64,000 bases of DNA from Leucobacter massiliensis (lineage in GTDB: Bacteria > Actinomycetota > Actinomycetes > Actinomycetales > Microbacteriaceae): positions 124,001 through 188,000 of the forward strand of contig NZ_MWZD01000017.1 of NCBI RefSeq assembly GCF_002982315.1. The letters run 5' to 3'. Below are positions 57,291 to 64,000 of this stretch, piece by piece (position 1 is the first letter of the stretch; every line of letters begins with the position of its first letter). Position numbers and translations under genes: made by a program. The notes under the pieces were generated by a model. That model was not told the origin of the DNA. It saw only the letters and a list, made by a program, of their open reading frames with translations, and made no database searches.

Positions 57291-58379
57291 GTGACCAGCC
57301 TCAGCGATCTGCCCCTCCGCGACAACCTCGTCGGCCTCGAACCCTACGGTGCGCCGCAGGAGCCCGTGCCGGTGAGCCTCAACGTCAACGAGAACACGCA
57401 CCCGATCCCCGAGAACGTGGTCGCCGACATCGTCGCATCGCTTGCCGAGGCGGTGCGCGGCGTCAACCGCTACCCCGACCGCGAGTTCATGGAACTGCGT
57501 GAAGCGCTCGCAGGCTACCTCGGGCACGAACTCGTCCCGGAGCAGATCTGGGCGGCGAACGGCTCCAACGAGGTGCTCCAGCAGGTGCTCCAGGCCTTCG
57601 GCGGACCCGGCCGCACCCTCCTGAGCTTCACCCCCACCTACTCGATGTACCCGCTGCTCGCCTCCGGCACCGACACCGAGTGGATCGGGGTGCCCCGCCC
57701 CGACGACTTCGCGCTCACCGCCGAGGGCGTCGCCGCCGCGCTCCGCGAGCACCAGCCCGACATCGCGATCCTCTGCGGCCCCAACAACCCCACCGGCACG
57801 CCCACGGAGCGCGAGGTCATCCGCGCCGCGTATGACGCCTTCGACGGCATCCTCATCGTCGACGAGGCCTACCAGGAGTTCGACGCGGAACGGCCCAGCT
57901 CCGTTGAACTCCTGCCCGGCCGTCCCCGGCTGCTCGTCTCCCGCACCATGAGCAAGGCCTTCGCCTTCGCCGGCGTGCGCCTCGGCTACCTCGCCGCAGA
58001 CCCCGCCGTGATCGATGCGCTGCGCCTCGTCCGCCTGCCCTACCACCTCTCCGCGCTCACCCAGGCCGCCGCCACCGCGGCGATCCGCCACTCCGGAGAG
58101 ATGCTCGCCACCGTCGCCGACATCCGCGCCCAGCGCGAGCGGCTCGCCGCCGCCCTCACCGGGCTCGGCTACCGCGTCCACCCCTCCGGGGCGAACTTCC
58201 TGCTCGTCGGCGGCTTCGCCGATCCCGCAGCCGCCTTCGAGGCCCTCCGCGCGCGCGGCATCCTCGTCCGCAACCTCGCCATCCCCGGGCACCTGCGCAT
58301 CACCGCGGGCACCGAGGCGGAGACCAGCGCGCTCATCGAAGCCATCACCGCGCTCGGCGAGCCCCCCGCAGCCGACTGA
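57291..58379 (+). CDS. hisC: Histidinol-phosphate aminotransferase
   Basis: 362 aa PLP enzyme of histidine synthesis. Motifs: NENTHPIP near the N-terminus, ANGSNEVL, GPNNPTGTP, IVDEAYQEF, and the PLP Lys222 in SRTMSKAFAFAG. It probably also serves phenylalanine transamination in some actinobacteria, but the histidine role is the default. It stands alone here; hisB and others, often next to it in actinobacteria, are not in the window because a minus-strand operon follows. Confidence 0.92.
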   Translation: MTSLSDLPLRDNLVGLEPYGAPQEPVPVSLNVNENTHPIPENVVADIVASLAEAVRGVNRYPDREFMELREALAGYLGHELVPEQIWAANGSNEVLQQVLQAFGGPGRTLLSFTPTYSMYPLLASGTDTEWIGVPRPDDFALTAEGVAAALREHQPDIAILCGPNNPTGTPTEREVIRAAYDAFDGILIVDEAYQEFDAERPSSVELLPGRPRLLVSRTMSKAFAFAGVRLGYLAADPAVIDALRLVRLPYHLSALTQAAATAAIRHSGEMLATVADIRAQRERLAAALTGLGYRVHPSGANFLLVGGFADPAAAFEALRARGILVRNLAIPGHLRITAGTEAETSALIEAITALGEPPAAD

Positions 58380-58482: not shown

Positions 58483-59544
58483 TCAGTGGTGGAGCAGCAC
58501 CAGATCTGCGGCGGCGACATGGAAGGCCGAACTGCGATCGACCGGAAGCTCCTCGTCGGCGGGCACCCGAGCGGTGAGCTCCGTGCCGTCCGTCGTCGTC
58601 AGGCGTACCAGCATCTCTTCGCCCGTGTAGACCTCGCGGCTCGGCGTCGCGGCGAACGCGAGCGCCGCCCCGTCGCCCGTGCCGGGCTTCACGCTGCCGC
58701 TGCGGAATGCGACCGCGTCCCCCGGCTGCGCGCCGGACAAGCCGCTCACCGGCAAGCCTGCCGCGACGGCGCGCGTGCCGTCGGCGGCCACCTCGCCGAG
58801 TTCGAGGATGTTCTCGTAGCCCACGAAGTCGGCGACATAGCGCGTCTCCGGCGAGGAGAAGATCTCCCGTGGCGTGCCGGCCTGCTCGATGCGGCCGCCA
58901 TTCATGATGACGATGCGGTCCGAGATCGCGAAGGCCTCCTCCTGATCGTGCGTGACGTAGATCGAGGTGTGCCCGAACTCGTCGTGCAGGCGGCGGACCT
59001 CGTCGCGCATCTTCACGCGCAGCTTCGCGTCGAGGTTCGACAGCGGCTCGTCGTAGAGCATCACCTCTCCCGCAGCCACGAGGCCGCGCGCGAGCGCGAT
59101 CCGCTGCTGCTGGCCGCCGGACAGCTCATGCGGGTACCGCGAGGCGTAGGCCGACATGCCCACCGCTTCCAGGGCCCGCTCGGCGGCAGCACGCTGCTCT
59201 GCCCTGCTGCCCTGCTTGCGGCGGCGGAGCGGGAACTCCACGTTCGACAGTGCCGACATGTGCGGCCAGATCGCGTAGCTCTGGAAGACCATGCCCACGC
59301 GGCGCTTGTGCGGTGGCACGAAACTGGCCCGCTCACCATCGGCGACGGTCTGCGCGCCGATACTGATCCGGCCCGAGGTGGGCGTCTCCAGGCCGGCGAC
59401 GCAGCGCAGCGTCGTCGTCTTCCCGCATCCGCTCGGCCCGAGCAGCGTGACGAACTCGCCCTCCGCGACGTGCAGGTCCAGGGCGTGCAGCACACGCGTG
59501 GCGTGGAAGGTCTTCTCCAGGCCTTCGATCACGATCTCTCCCAT
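58483..59544 (-). CDS. ABC transporter ATP-binding protein (PotA/FbpC type), no permease nearby
   Basis: 353 aa. Walker A GPSGCGKTT, VGMVFQSYAIWPH, signature LSGGQQQR, MLYDEPLSNLDAKLR, H-loop THDQ, then a TOBE domain. AAGGAG lies 8 bases before the ATG. It is the last gene of the minus-strand operon; permease and binding protein are not downstream, so they should lie upstream of the window edge (beyond 64000) or the subunit is shared with another importer. Confidence 0.9.
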   Translation of the reverse strand: MGEIVIEGLEKTFHATRVLHALDLHVAEGEFVTLLGPSGCGKTTTLRCVAGLETPTSGRISIGAQTVADGERASFVPPHKRRVGMVFQSYAIWPHMSALSNVEFPLRRRKQGSRAEQRAAAERALEAVGMSAYASRYPHELSGGQQQRIALARGLVAAGEVMLYDEPLSNLDAKLRVKMRDEVRRLHDEFGHTSIYVTHDQEEAFAISDRIVIMNGGRIEQAGTPREIFSSPETRYVADFVGYENILELGEVAADGTRAVAAGLPVSGLSGAQPGDAVAFRSGSVKPGTGDGAALAFAATPSREVYTGEEMLVRLTTTDGTELTARVPADEELPVDRSSAFHVAAADLVLLHH

Positions 59545-59573
59545 GGGAGGCTCCTTCTGGTTGCGGGGCGGCG

Positions 59574-60710
59574 CTACAGCGCGCCGCCCTTCTGGTCGAT
59601 CATGTGCGCGGCAGCCGACACCACGAAGGCGATCTGGGCGCGCACCACCCGCGCAGCCTCCTCGGCGTCGCGTGCCGCGATTGCCGCGGTCAGCTCGGGG
59701 ATGAAGGGGTGGCCGAGCTTCTCCTGCCACACTTCGGAACGGTAGGTGTCGCGCCAGGCAGCGGAGATGCTCAGCTGCCGGAACTGCGAGACGAGACGGC
59801 GGGATCCGGCGAGCGCCACGATGGCGCAGTGCAGATTGAGGTTCGCCTCGAGGAAAGCGTCGAGCTCTTCGGAGTTCCGCGGTTCACGCGCGGCGAGATC
59901 CTCCGCGAGGCGGGTGATCTCCGCGATGGTCGCATCCGAAGCGGAGGCGAGATACTGCTGGATCACCCCCGACTCGATCGTCTCCCGTGCGCTGTACAGA
60001 TTCTCGACGAGCGAAGCGGTGATAGGGGTCGGGACGAACGCGCCCCCGGGCTCGCGCGACACCAGCCCCTCCGCTTCGAGCCGCACGAGCGCGTTGTATA
60101 CGGATGGCTCGTCCGACTGCACGATCGCGGCGAGCTCGCGCACGGCGATCGGCTCGCCCAGGGGCGTGCCACGGCCGAGCACGCGGAGACGGACCCGGTC
60201 GTAGGCCTCCGTCTCGAGCGAGGTCCGCTCCAGGGCGTCGAAGCGTCCGCGGAAGTAGGCGAGCGGATCACCGGGACGCGCCTGCGCGGCCGTCACCTCG
60301 CCAAGGAACACGGTGTGGGTGCCGCCGATCGCGGTCTCTGCGACGACGCACTCGATGGTCGCGAGCGCGCCGTCGATGAGCGGCAGGCCCTGCTCGCTGA
60401 GCGTGTGCGAGACCCCGGAGAACTTGTCGGCGCCCTTGCGGCCGAAGTGGGCGGCGAGGTCGCCCTGATCGACGGCGAGGATGTTGATCGCGTACCGGCC
60501 GGCCGCGACGACGTGATCGTGCGTGGAACTGGAACGGTTGAGGCAGGCCAGCATCATCGGCGGATCCATCGAAAGGGACGACACCGCCGAGGCGGTCGTG
60601 CCGTAGAGGACGCCGTCGTGGTTCGTGGTGATGACGGTCACCCCCGAGGCGAAGTGGCCGACGACGTGCCGGAACGCGGCCTGATCCATCTGCGCAAGCT
60701 GCTCGTTCAT
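59574..60710 (-). CDS. Flavin reductase fused to a GntR/FCD regulator
   Basis: 378 aa with two parts. Residues about 12-160 are an HpaC-like flavin reductase (FASGVTVITTNHDGVLYGTTASAVSSLSMDPP, then GTHTVFLGEVTAAQ), which supplies reduced FMN/FAD to a monooxygenase. Residues about 165-375 are a short winged helix (LAAIVQSDEPSVYNALVRLEAEGLV) plus an FCD ligand domain (LNLHCAIVALAGS, AIAARDAEEAARV). The joined frame is continuous with no break, so the fusion looks genuine. ATGA overlap with the MarR gene. The partner monooxygenase is not in the window. Confidence 0.85.
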   Translation of the reverse strand: MNEQLAQMDQAAFRHVVGHFASGVTVITTNHDGVLYGTTASAVSSLSMDPPMMLACLNRSSSTHDHVVAAGRYAINILAVDQGDLAAHFGRKGADKFSGVSHTLSEQGLPLIDGALATIECVVAETAIGGTHTVFLGEVTAAQARPGDPLAYFRGRFDALERTSLETEAYDRVRLRVLGRGTPLGEPIAVRELAAIVQSDEPSVYNALVRLEAEGLVSREPGGAFVPTPITASLVENLYSARETIESGVIQQYLASASDATIAEITRLAEDLAAREPRNSEELDAFLEANLNLHCAIVALAGSRRLVSQFRQLSISAAWRDTYRSEVWQEKLGHPFIPELTAAIAARDAEEAARVVRAQIAFVVSAAAHMIDQKGGAL

Positions 60711-61285
60711 GATTCTCCGATCGAGAGGAGGGAGGAATTGATGGCCTTGCCCGGGCCGAAGCGAAGGGCGCTCGGGCTCGACATCAGCTTGCCGAGCAAG
60801 CCCAGCAGGATCTGCTGCTCGGGGTCGGAGAGCGGCGAGAGCCACTCCTGCGTGAGTGCGAGGTGCCGGCGGTACGTCTCCTCCGTGCTGGCCACGCCCT
60901 CGGGCGTCAGAGACATCACGATCGAGCGCTGATCGGTGGGGGAGTCGACCGTGGTCACGTAGCCGCGCTCGGTGAGCGTCTTGCGCGCCGAAGAGACGGC
61001 GGCGCGGCTCATCGAAGACAGCAGGGCGACGCGTCCGGGTTCCAGCGGGCCGCGCACCCACAGCGCGAAGCAGACGCGGAAGCTCGCCCAGGTGAGCCCC
61101 TCGGGGATGATTCCCTCGAGCTCCACCTCGACCGCCATGAGCTTGTGGAGGCGGCGCAGGATCATGCCGACGGGGACGGCGTTGCTGCGCCCGATGTCCC
61201 CGAGCCGCTCGCGCGCCCGATCCTGGGCGTCGGCGACGAAGCCCTCGAAGGTCTGGGGCGAACGGGAAGATTCTTCGTCAGTCAT
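60707..61285 (-). CDS. MarR-family regulator
   Basis: 192 aa. Winged helix LSSMSRAAVSSARKTLTERGYVTTVDSPTDQRS with the MarR wing pattern D-x-R-S; helical dimer segments on both sides. Overlaps the aldehyde dehydrogenase by 8 bases upstream and the flavin-reductase fusion downstream, so it is embedded in the catabolic operon it presumably controls. Aromatic or phenolic ligands are common for the family. Confidence 0.88.
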   Translation of the reverse strand: MTDEESSRSPQTFEGFVADAQDRARERLGDIGRSNAVPVGMILRRLHKLMAVEVELEGIIPEGLTWASFRVCFALWVRGPLEPGRVALLSSMSRAAVSSARKTLTERGYVTTVDSPTDQRSIVMSLTPEGVASTEETYRRHLALTQEWLSPLSDPEQQILLGLLGKLMSSPSALRFGPGKAINSSLLSIGES

Positions 61286-62735
61286 GGTCTGCTCCTGCCG
61301 TTCCGATGGTCTTCAGCTCACAGTATGCGTCGAGACCGGCCCGCCCGCCCTCGCGTCCGAGCCCCGACTCGCGCATTCCCCCGAAGGGCATGCCCGGGTC
61401 GGGAACGGGGGTGCGGTTGACCCAGGTCATGCCGACGTCGAGTCGGCGGGCGAGTCGTTCGCCCGCGGCCTGGTTCGCCGTCCAGATCGTGGCGCCCAGC
61501 CCGTACGGCCCGGCGTTCACGGCGTCGACCAGCGCGTCGAGATCCTCGTACGGGACCAGCGGCAGCACCGGCCCGAACTGCTCCTCCTGCACGAGCTCGC
61601 CATCCGGGTCCGGCCCGGTGACGACCGCGGGCCGGACCCCCAGGAATCCGGGGACGGCTTCGGCGCCGCCGGTGCGGATCGTCGCGCCCTCGCGCTCCGC
61701 ACCCGCGAGCAGTCCCAGCACCCGGCGGTACTGATCCTCTCCGGAGAGCACGGGGTGGCTCGCCTCGGGATCGTAGGGGCTTCCCACGCGTGCCGCGTTC
61801 GCGAGCTCGACGAGGCGTTCCGTGAGTGCGCCGAGCACCCCGGGAGGTGCGTAGACGCGCTTGACCGCGACGCAGGCCTGGCCGCTCGATGCGAACGCGG
61901 AACGGAAGATCTCTGGGGCGACCCGTTCGACGTCGGCATCGTCGAGGAGGATGGCCGGGTCGTTCCCGCCGAGCTCGAGTTGCAGGCGGGTGATCGTGGC
62001 CGAGGCGGCCGCCATGACCTCCCGTCCGGCCCGGCGTGAACCGGTGAGCGTGATCATGCCGACGCCCGGGTGGGCGACCAGGGTGCGGCCGAGCTCCGCT
62101 CCGCCGGGAAGCACCCGGAACACCCCGGGCGGAAGCAGCGGCCTCGAGAGGCTCTGCAGCATCAGCGCAGACAGCGGGGTCTGGGGGGAGGGCTTCGCGA
62201 TGACGGTGTTGCCCGTCAGCAGTGCGGCGGCGAGCTTGTTCACGAGCATGAGCAGCGGCATATTGGCCGGTGTGACGGCTGCGACCACGCCCACCGGCTC
62301 GCGCACCAGACGGAGACGACCGGAGGCGTCGTCGCGCAGGACCTCTTCCGGGATGTCGAGGCCCGCATGGTGGCGGAGCGAGCCGATCGCGGCGCCCACC
62401 TCCATGGCCGCCGAGCGCTGCAGCTTGCCGTTCTCGAAGCAGATGAGATGGGTGAGGAGTTCTTCCTCCGCGGCGAGCGCGTCGGCGAGCTCGGTGAGCG
62501 CGCGTCGCCGGGGCGCCGCATCGAGCCGCCACTCGCGCAGCGCGTCGCGCGCCGCCTGCACCGCGGCCCCCACGTCCGCCGGCTCGGCGTCGCGCAGCTC
62601 GAATGCCCAGTCGAGCCGCCACGGGACGCGGACGCGGCTCACTCCCGGGGTGCCGGGCGGGGCTGTGATGCCCCGGGTGCGCAGCGTCTCGGCGATGCGG
62701 TCGCGCCAGTGCTCGGCGCTGGTCTGATCGTGCAC
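61278..62735 (-). CDS. NAD(P)-dependent aldehyde dehydrogenase
   Basis: 485 aa. Catalytic Glu254 (LQLELGGND) and Cys288 (SSGQACVAVKR), cofactor Lys in IAKPSPQTP, and a PANMP in place of the usual PWNFP. Probably oxidises the aldehyde made by the GMC oxidoreductase in front of it. The frame could begin at a TTG (62747) touching the preceding stop, but GGAG lies 6 bases before the GTG at 62735, which I prefer. Confidence 0.9.
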   Translation of the reverse strand: MHDQTSAEHWRDRIAETLRTRGITAPPGTPGVSRVRVPWRLDWAFELRDAEPADVGAAVQAARDALREWRLDAAPRRRALTELADALAAEEELLTHLICFENGKLQRSAAMEVGAAIGSLRHHAGLDIPEEVLRDDASGRLRLVREPVGVVAAVTPANMPLLMLVNKLAAALLTGNTVIAKPSPQTPLSALMLQSLSRPLLPPGVFRVLPGGAELGRTLVAHPGVGMITLTGSRRAGREVMAAASATITRLQLELGGNDPAILLDDADVERVAPEIFRSAFASSGQACVAVKRVYAPPGVLGALTERLVELANAARVGSPYDPEASHPVLSGEDQYRRVLGLLAGAEREGATIRTGGAEAVPGFLGVRPAVVTGPDPDGELVQEEQFGPVLPLVPYEDLDALVDAVNAGPYGLGATIWTANQAAGERLARRLDVGMTWVNRTPVPDPGMPFGGMRESGLGREGGRAGLDAYCELKTIGTAGADHD

Positions 62736-62747
62736 GCGGGTCTCCAA

Positions 62748-64000
62748 TCAGCGGGCGAGGTCGGGGGTGCGTCGCAGGAAGCGGTCTGCGACGGCGAGCA
62801 CGGTGAGCAGCGTGTTCGCGGAGGGGACGGTGGGCAGCACTGAGGCGTCGCAGACGCGCAGGCCCTCGATGCCGTGAACGCGCAGTTCGGGATCGACGAC
62901 GCTGTCGCGGTCTCCCGCTGCGCCCATGCGCGCGGTGGAGGTGAGGTGCATCGTGTCCTTGACGCCGGCGAGCAGCTCGCGGTCGTCGCGCGGGGCGCGT
63001 ACGGGGCCGAGTGCGCGCGAGGCGAAGGCGTCGTGCTGCATCAGCTCCAGCGTGCGCGCGACGCCGTCGCGTGCGCGGTCGAGGTCGCGCGGGTCCGAGA
63101 GCAGCCGGAGCTCGAAGTGCGGATCCTGGCGCGGGTCTGCCGAGGTCAGGGTCATGTGCCCGGTGCTGAGTGGTTGCTCGAGGGACACGGCGACGCCTGC
63201 GGTCGGCTGCCCGAACCAGTAGTTGTGGTTGGTGGCGAGCAGCATCATGTCGTTGCTGCGCCCGCCCGGGAGTCCTGAGGTGTAGCGGAGGATCGTGTTC
63301 GTGGGGCGGTTGCCGACACTGCGCTGTTCCTCCTCGCGCACGCTCACCTCCGCGAAGACCACGGCGTGGTCCTGGGCATGATGGCCGACGGGCAGATCGG
63401 CGACGGGGTCGATGCCCAGGGCCCGCAGATCCTCGGCGGGCCCGATGCCCGACCTCCACAGCATCGCGGGCGTGTGCACTGCGCCCGCGCAGAGGATCAC
63501 CTCGCCCCCGGGTGCGAGCGGGTATTGCGTGCCCTCCGCATCGAGCACCGCGCGGGCGCGATCGCCGGAGAGGAGCACGCGGTCGACGTGGGTGTCACCG
63601 TGGATGGTCAGATTGGGGCGGCCGCGCACCGGATCGAGCCAGGCGTGGTTGGTGGAGACGCGCAGGCCGTCGCGGATGTGCATCGCGAAGGGGGAGACGC
63701 CGCTCGAAGCGGGGTCGTTGTGGTCGGGGGCCCAGGGGTGCCCGGCGTCGAGGGCGGCGTCGCGCAGTGCGCGGTCCATGCCGCCCCAGCCGCTCTCGGG
63801 TTCGCGATACACGGGGAAGGGGCCGCCGGTGCCGTGCCAGGGGGCGTCGGGGAAGTCATGTTCGTCCTCGATGGCGATGTAGCTCTCCAGCATGTCCTGC
63901 GGGCCCCAGCCTGTCGCCCCGAGCGATTCCCAGTGGCGGAAGTCGTCGGGGACGCCGCGGATCGCGTAGAGGCCGTTGACGGTGGAGGAGCCCCCGAGGC
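62748..64000 (-). CDS. GMC-family oxidoreductase (5' end beyond the window)
   Basis: Partial: the gene runs off the right edge; about 417 C-terminal residues are visible. The visible upstream part has the GMC signature LGGSSTVNGLYAIRG. The FAD motif PGGEVILCAGAVHTPAMLWRSGIGP and the C-terminal MHLTSTARMG...VVDPELRVHGIEGLRVCDAS with PTVPSANT are typical; the catalytic-region His is in MHLTSTARMG. Such flavoenzymes oxidise alcohols to aldehydes (choline dehydrogenase-like), which fits the aldehyde dehydrogenase next to it. An internal ATG at 63893 is not the start. Confidence 0.92.
   Translation of the reverse strand, partial: LGGSSTVNGLYAIRGVPDDFRHWESLGATGWGPQDMLESYIAIEDEHDFPDAPWHGTGGPFPVYREPESGWGGMDRALRDAALDAGHPWAPDHNDPASSGVSPFAMHIRDGLRVSTNHAWLDPVRGRPNLTIHGDTHVDRVLLSGDRARAVLDAEGTQYPLAPGGEVILCAGAVHTPAMLWRSGIGPAEDLRALGIDPVADLPVGHHAQDHAVVFAEVSVREEEQRSVGNRPTNTILRYTSGLPGGRSNDMMLLATNHNYWFGQPTAGVAVSLEQPLSTGHMTLTSADPRQDPHFELRLLSDPRDLDRARDGVARTLELMQHDAFASRALGPVRAPRDDRELLAGVKDTMHLTSTARMGAAGDRDSVVDPELRVHGIEGLRVCDASVLPTVPSANTLLTVLAVADRFLRRTPDLAR

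Follow-up and report, generated by a model that had tools for sequence, protein, structure and literature searches.

We found that a single gene in the window (the whole 64-kb stretch of DNA that was analysed, G000:C9:124001-188000) encodes a flavin reductase joined to a GntR-type winged helix and an FCD domain. With a probability of roughly 0.6, this protein serves a two-component FMN-dependent monooxygenase as its reductase, and its C-terminal part, a former regulator, would gate the activity in response to a ligand. The gating part of this reading is drawn by analogy with the MarR domain of the C1 reductase.

The reading frame runs unbroken from an ATG at 60710 to a stop at 59574. Three Pfam families match the product above their curated cut-offs, namely Flavin_Reduct (PF01613, residues 18-160; E 9.9e-42, 143.1 bits, cut-off 27), GntR (residues 167-225; E 4.9e-8, 33 bits, cut-off 27) and FCD (residues 238-360; E 1.4e-12, 48.6 bits, cut-off 24.3). 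The original prediction of one continuous frame combining a reductase, a winged helix and an FCD domain is therefore borne out. Twelve NCBIfam models also match the fusion, none of them at its cut-off (the HsaB model reaches 137 bits and the RutF model 92.5). The fusion ATG overlaps the TGA stop of the preceding MarR gene in the sequence ATGA; CGGAGAATCATG lies upstream of this ATG, and CGGAGAATC precedes it. The winged helix starts at residue 167 of 378 and is thus not N-terminal, as it is in GntR/FCD transcription factors. An AlphaFold model of the protein, made from one sequence, had a mean pLDDT of 42.2 and was unusable. Coordinates are collected in Table 1.

Table 1. Features of the fusion gene and its surroundings, in window coordinates (L006 is the window locus extended past the edge; window coordinate = L006 + 56999)
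Feature	Position	Strand	Basis and remarks
Fusion gene, flavin reductase + GntR-type winged helix + FCD, 378 aa	59574..60710	-	ORF and Pfam
Flavin reductase domain, residues 8-160	60231..60689	-	Pfam Flavin_Reduct at residues 18-160
GntR-type winged helix, residues 167-231	60018..60212	-	Pfam GntR and winged-helix alignment
Recognition helix SDEPSVYNALV, residues 199-209	60084..60116	-	Profile alignment
FCD domain, residues 238-362	59625..59999	-	Pfam and alignment
MarR-family regulator	60707..61285	-	Pfam; overlaps fusion start by 4 nt (ATGA)
Aldehyde dehydrogenase	61278..62735	-	Pfam
GMC oxidoreductase	62748..64000, continuing to about 64271 past the window	-	Pfam
ABC transporter ATPase	58483..59544	-	29 nt downstream of fusion; best NCBIfam model PhnT2, below cut-off
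hisC	57291..58379	+	Identified by eye; borders the inserted catabolic cluster on the left without belonging to it
NtaA/DmoA-family FMN monooxygenase	68174-69508 (L006 11175-12509), 4.2 kb past the edge	rightward, divergent operon	TIGR03860

A survey of sequence databases, which had been suggested along with the original prediction, turned up the same architecture at 14 further loci. One is a paralog in the same genome (C9:714482-715588), 56% identical along almost its entire length; 12 more are spread over 11 other genomes, and the last is on a plasmid of Dietzia lutea. The 15 full-length fusions that we read (the window, L007, L024-L030, L032, L033, L036 and L097-L099) come from several actinobacterial families. 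They also rule out a sequencing error or other artefact, or a misreading of two genes as one. Within the genus, 5 of 54 genomes, including the window's own, carry fusions at seven loci, and a sixth, G039, has an N-terminal fragment that ends at a contig end. Since only four candidates per genome were scored in the wider samples, the counts there are lower bounds: at least four further genomes among 396 of the phylum (G139, G353, G468, G481) and at least three among 394 of the class (G720, G750, G789).

A Pfam scan of 14 of these fusions (L025 was left out) recognised Flavin_Reduct and FCD in every one. GntR was recognised in 11, in seven of them, including the window protein, above the cut-off, and was not reported for L026 and L033 (scanned to E 0.001) or for L028 (scanned to E 1). 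In Pseudarthrobacter chlorophenolicus A6 and Arthrobacter sp. YC-RL1, plasmids encode 259-aa cousins that consist of a reductase and a winged helix with no FCD domain (by Pfam for the first only). Searches of genome contigs with one protein and of viral contigs with an alignment each gave a single relative, with 27% identity confined to residues 38-178 and 39% identity over residues 6-139, respectively.

The fusion lies in a leftward operon in the order GMC oxidoreductase, aldehyde dehydrogenase, MarR regulator, fusion and ABC ATPase; the ATPase probably belongs to one operon with the fusion. Facing it is a rightward operon of a solute-binding protein, a SnoaL-like protein, a permease, a monooxygenase and a CocE/NonD hydrolase. 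This monooxygenase, roughly 7.5 kb from the fusion, scores 473.1 bits against TIGR03860 (cut-off 279.7). NtaA-type enzymes require a separate FMN reductase. The original prediction also stated that no monooxygenase is present in the window, and this holds for the NtaA, luciferase-like and HpaB families, six queries from which gave no tblastn match there at E up to 0.01.

The order of the fusion and monooxygenase genes is common to G000, G004 and G011. In G011 (L024) and G004 (L025), homologs of eight other cluster genes flank the fusion with their order kept, and the ninth, CocE, begins there too and runs past the end of the stretch compared. In G032 (L027), the neighbours of the fusion include an NtaA-type gene of 54% identity, an aldehyde dehydrogenase and another ABC system. 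We take the NtaA/DmoA-type enzyme as the candidate partner because of the TIGR03860 match and the gene order kept in the three genomes. That the reductase feeds a monooxygenase, as originally proposed, is therefore probable, with a partner outside the window and a conserved neighbourhood. The best model matches of the ABC transporter are 2-aminoethylphosphonate types, below cut-off; together with the GMC oxidoreductase, the aldehyde dehydrogenase and the CocE hydrolase, they suggest that the pathway compound is organic and contains an ester or alcohol.

The divergent intergenic regions between the GMC and solute-binding protein genes in the three genomes have TTGACTAA in common, with a possible -10 element recognised by eye. 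No conserved palindrome was seen in these regions, so TTGACTAA does not tell which regulator binds. The MarR-family protein is a candidate for the actual transcription factor of the cluster.

The whole catabolic cluster (58483-64000 and on to 71211; L006 1484-14212) is located between hisC and hisB, both named by eye. In 5 of 10 congeners checked, hisB directly follows hisC; these include G004 and G011, whose copy of the cluster is elsewhere. In the other five, hisB is not within the 1.5 kb examined. A gap of 10 nt separates the end of the CocE gene from hisB, and the catabolic operon may therefore read into hisB. The paralogous fusion (region L007 8977-10149 with its flanks, G000:C9 near 714482) is accompanied by a regulator with an AAA lid and a Fis-type helix-turn-helix, whose best match, below cut-off, is DhaR. 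A CocE hydrolase also lies beside it, an ABC system of the branched-chain type and an SDR were recognised there by eye, and no monooxygenase was seen.

The association with monooxygenases extends across the family. A Bac_luciferase or HpaB-type gene is found within 10 kb of the fusion in 10 of the 15 loci, and these genes are of three sorts. NtaA-type genes accompany the window fusion (L006), L024, L025 and L027. Other luciferase-like genes are divergent neighbours in L097, L098 and L099 and lie about 2 kb away in L030. HpaB-type genes are the next gene on the same strand in L029 and a divergent neighbour in L032. The remaining loci (L007, L026, L028, L033 and L036) count against the partner reading, as no such gene was found nearby by inspection of the gene lists (for L036, the record annotation) or by a tblastn search (E up to 0.01) with six monooxygenase sequences.

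Within the genus, a monooxygenase with more than 50% identity occurs in 6 of 54 genomes (G000, G004, G011, G032, G039, G050). The fusion, counting the G039 fragment, also occurs in six, with G047 in place of G050. The two thus coincide in five genomes (Fisher p 1.1e-5, which overstates independence because the genomes are related). G050, which has the monooxygenase and no fusion, is a 76%-complete draft. As a separate matter, L097, L098 and L099 form a conserved group in which the fusion and an LLM monooxygenase are transcribed divergently. After the fusion of L099 come a gene with a weak CMD-like match, below cut-off, and one for an alpha/beta hydrolase, an arrangement that resembles rhizobial clusters.

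The original prediction held that the protein might report flavin or NADH status, or substrate, directly to DNA. It would then be a bifunctional trigger enzyme, able both to reduce flavin and to bind DNA with a non-canonical winged helix. We aligned the winged helices to a profile for which the same nine genomes supplied stand-alone GntR/FCD proteins. The stand-alone set consists of 28 of 138 FCD matches (loci were taken for 30, high-scoring in each genome, and two were fusions), and it is biased to canonical proteins because the profile was seeded with 27 ORFs picked by an Arg-containing motif. The fused side comprises 17 winged helices, from 15 fusions and two HTH-only proteins. All of them could be aligned except those of L026 and L028, which leaves 15.

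The second Arg of the motif SRxxVREAL is present in all 28 proteins of the motif-seeded stand-alone set versus 1 of 15 fused proteins (L036 retains it). The first is found in 25 of 28 stand-alone proteins and in 5 of 15 fused ones, with Lys in a further fused protein. This contrast is large despite the bias of the stand-alone set. Both are absent from all four members of the window clade (window, L007, L024, L025). In the window protein they are replaced by E201 and Y205, and the recognition helix is acidic, with a net charge of -3. The net charge of the whole winged helix differs only modestly between fused and stand-alone proteins.

These replacements make direct reporting to DNA doubtful. 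The absence of a Pfam winged helix from L026, L028 and L033, the existence in Variovorax of a reductase with an FCD domain and no winged helix, and the operon's own MarR regulator likewise argue against a trigger enzyme. On the other hand, the winged helix exceeds the Pfam cut-off in half of the scanned fusions, it is under purifying selection in L026/L028 (see below), and some members keep an Arg and a Tyr in the recognition helix. The last of these are L029, L030 and the HTH-only L034 and L035, which have the first Arg followed by Tyr (R...Y), presumably the pattern of DNA-binding TrmB-type winged helices. The R...Y members, and L036 with its second Arg, count against a uniform loss of DNA contacts, and because of the R...Y members fusions outside the window clade may still bind DNA. 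Overall, we consider a trigger enzyme unlikely for the window protein.

The FCD domain is also altered in the window clade. Four positions, which we take to be metal ligands with the usual residues Asp/Asn, His, His and His, are N290, H294, I337 and Q359 in the window protein, i.e., two His are lost. In the stand-alone members, these two His are present in 25 of 28 and in 28 of 28, respectively. All four window-clade members have the N and H at the first two positions and lack the other two His; because of this absence, their pocket is probably not of the usual metal-assisted type. All three His are kept in L026, L028, L029, L030, L032 and L033, and L097-L099 have Tyr at the last position. As far as these residues indicate, the FCD sensor is not uniformly altered across the fusions, which weighs against the reading that we favour.

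A Variovorax plasmid protein (L039 4001-4891, 297 aa) has Flavin_Reduct followed directly by FCD, with no winged helix detected by Pfam at E up to 1. We built a tree of reductase domains with 26 rows, leaving out the long rows L004 and L005; long branches meet around L044. In this tree, the Variovorax protein is separated from all fusions by a branch with support 100/99 and groups with single-domain and rhizobial reductases, and two single-domain reductases, L037 and L044, lie on the fusion side. The FCD part of the Variovorax protein is closer to stand-alone FCDs than to fused ones. Given its different branch and the affinity of its FCD, it seems that reductases acquired FCD at least twice, once without the DNA-binding part. 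The Variovorax protein occurs at full length in three plasmid records with at least 90.9% identity.

Among the three modules, the reductase domain is the most conserved: when 12 fusions were compared, it was higher in identity than the winged helix and FCD in all 66 pairs. Winged-helix identity exceeds FCD identity in 362 of 378 pairs of stand-alone proteins and in 74 of 105 pairs of fused ones. Restricted to close pairs, the numbers (10 of 19 and 5 of 12) do not discriminate. We calculated dN/dS for four pairs, of which only L026/L028 has low dS. In this pair, the winged helix (0.124) and the FCD domain (0.081) are under purifying selection, the reductase having 0.069, and the winged-helix value counts against the ex-regulator reading. 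For window/L025, where dS is 0.7-0.9, the winged helix resembles the FCD (0.495 and 0.506) and the reductase has 0.34. For window/L024 and L097/L098, values were obtained for all domains but one each.

Another explanation is that the C-terminal module is structural or docks a partner, i.e., that it serves oligomerisation or the hand-over of FMNH2 to the monooxygenase without sensing a ligand. GntR-FCD proteins are usually dimers, and NTA-MoB, a flavin reductase of the same fold, is described as a homodimer (PMC3169409). The partner monooxygenases differ widely, as do the C-terminal parts, which would suit such a role. However, FCD is a ligand-binding family and was recognised in all 14 scanned fusions, and many two-component reductases function with no such C-terminal domain. 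The precedent set by C1 is one of ligand gating (PMC10816480). We therefore judge a purely structural or docking role to be quite unlikely. A degenerating passenger, in which a chance fusion left a functionless C-terminal part, would fit the faster divergence of the winged helix and FCD relative to the reductase, but is very improbable given the full-length frames kept in 15 loci of several families and the purifying selection on FCD in L026/L028.

Returning to the ligand-gated reductase that we favour, the fusion would be the NADH:flavin oxidoreductase component, and its partner would be the NtaA/DmoA-type enzyme of the divergent operon. We infer its catalytic activity as well as its flavin preference. 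The GntR-FCD module would derive from a ligand-sensing transcription factor and would have lost its canonical DNA contacts, and presumably DNA binding with them. It would most likely act as an autoinhibitory allosteric sensor, such that binding of a substrate or product of the pathway releases the reductase. Such gating would prevent wasteful oxidation of NADH and formation of H2O2, and control of transcription would be left to the separate MarR protein.

A more general proposition, to which we give even odds, is that sensory transcription factors or parts of them (MarR, GntR winged helix, GntR-FCD, FCD alone) have repeatedly been captured as reductase gates. In the window clade, which would have lost both its DNA contacts and its FCD metal site, an ex-repressor would then switch electron flow and not a promoter. 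If this is true, substrate-gated flavin reduction extends beyond C1 to a wider set of catabolic reductases, and the fusion clearly exemplifies a transcription factor that has been put to new use in gating an enzyme. It would also follow that "GntR" matches within reductases should not be taken to mark gene regulators, and that the family offers testable ligand-gated FMNH2 suppliers for biocatalysis.

Several known systems are related to the fusion. GntR/FCD (FadR-subfamily) factors, e.g., PDB 3fms and 3sxy, have the same order of winged helix and FCD and match the same profiles. In the fusion, by contrast, the module is C-terminal to an enzyme, and the recognition-helix Args and two FCD His are lost. 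Single-domain reductases of the NtaB/RutF/HsaB type belong to the same family as the fusion and presumably play the same role for NtaA systems, but are not known to carry a GntR-FCD part.

Rhizobial reductases of the PDB 3rh7 type (L114 5968-6957 from Rhizobium, L116 4992-5918 from Leisingera, L117 4980-5951 from Agrobacterium) also have an extra C-terminal part, of about 150 aa, and occur in clusters with an LLM monooxygenase, an aldehyde dehydrogenase and a hydrolase. L114, the one compared, matches 3rh7 over almost its whole length. Unlike in the fusion, the C-terminal part of these proteins is not recognisably GntR or FCD, as a Pfam scan up to E 0.1 gave no match for it.

CphB-type reductases of 4-chlorophenol, 4-fluorophenol and 4-nitrophenol monooxygenases resemble the fusion in joining a reductase to a winged helix. 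L034, the reductase that pACHL02 of P. chlorophenolicus A6 encodes, is 46% identical to residues 8-229 of the fusion, and the cph cluster suggests that it is CphB. These reductases differ in having no FCD and an HpaB-type, not NtaA-type, partner. For their C-terminal HTH, a role in substrate recognition is "expected" according to a published account (PMC6205950). Fusions of a reductase to a C-terminal HTH or MarR domain, and the idea that the HTH is no gene regulator, are therefore already in print; we found no description of the GntR + FCD form in open-licence PMC full texts.

The precedent for the proposed gating is C1 (AbHpaC), the reductase of p-hydroxyphenylacetate 3-hydroxylase from Acinetobacter baumannii (PDB 5zc2, 5zyr). 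The N-terminal reductase is shared (E 8e-22 over residues 8-160), and both proteins have a C-terminal domain of transcription-factor origin and a two-component monooxygenase partner, here the NtaA/DmoA candidate encoded nearby. However, C1 carries a MarR domain and has 315 aa, whereas the fusion has a GntR winged helix plus FCD and 378 aa, and scores 112.8 against the model NF045919 (cut-off 340). The MarR domain of C1 is reported to have an autoinhibitory effect that is lifted when 4-HPA binds, and substrate-gated flavin reduction is called uncommon apart from C1 (PMC10816480). Ligand gating is thus reported for C1, and by analogy the GntR-FCD module may gate the fusion in a similar manner.
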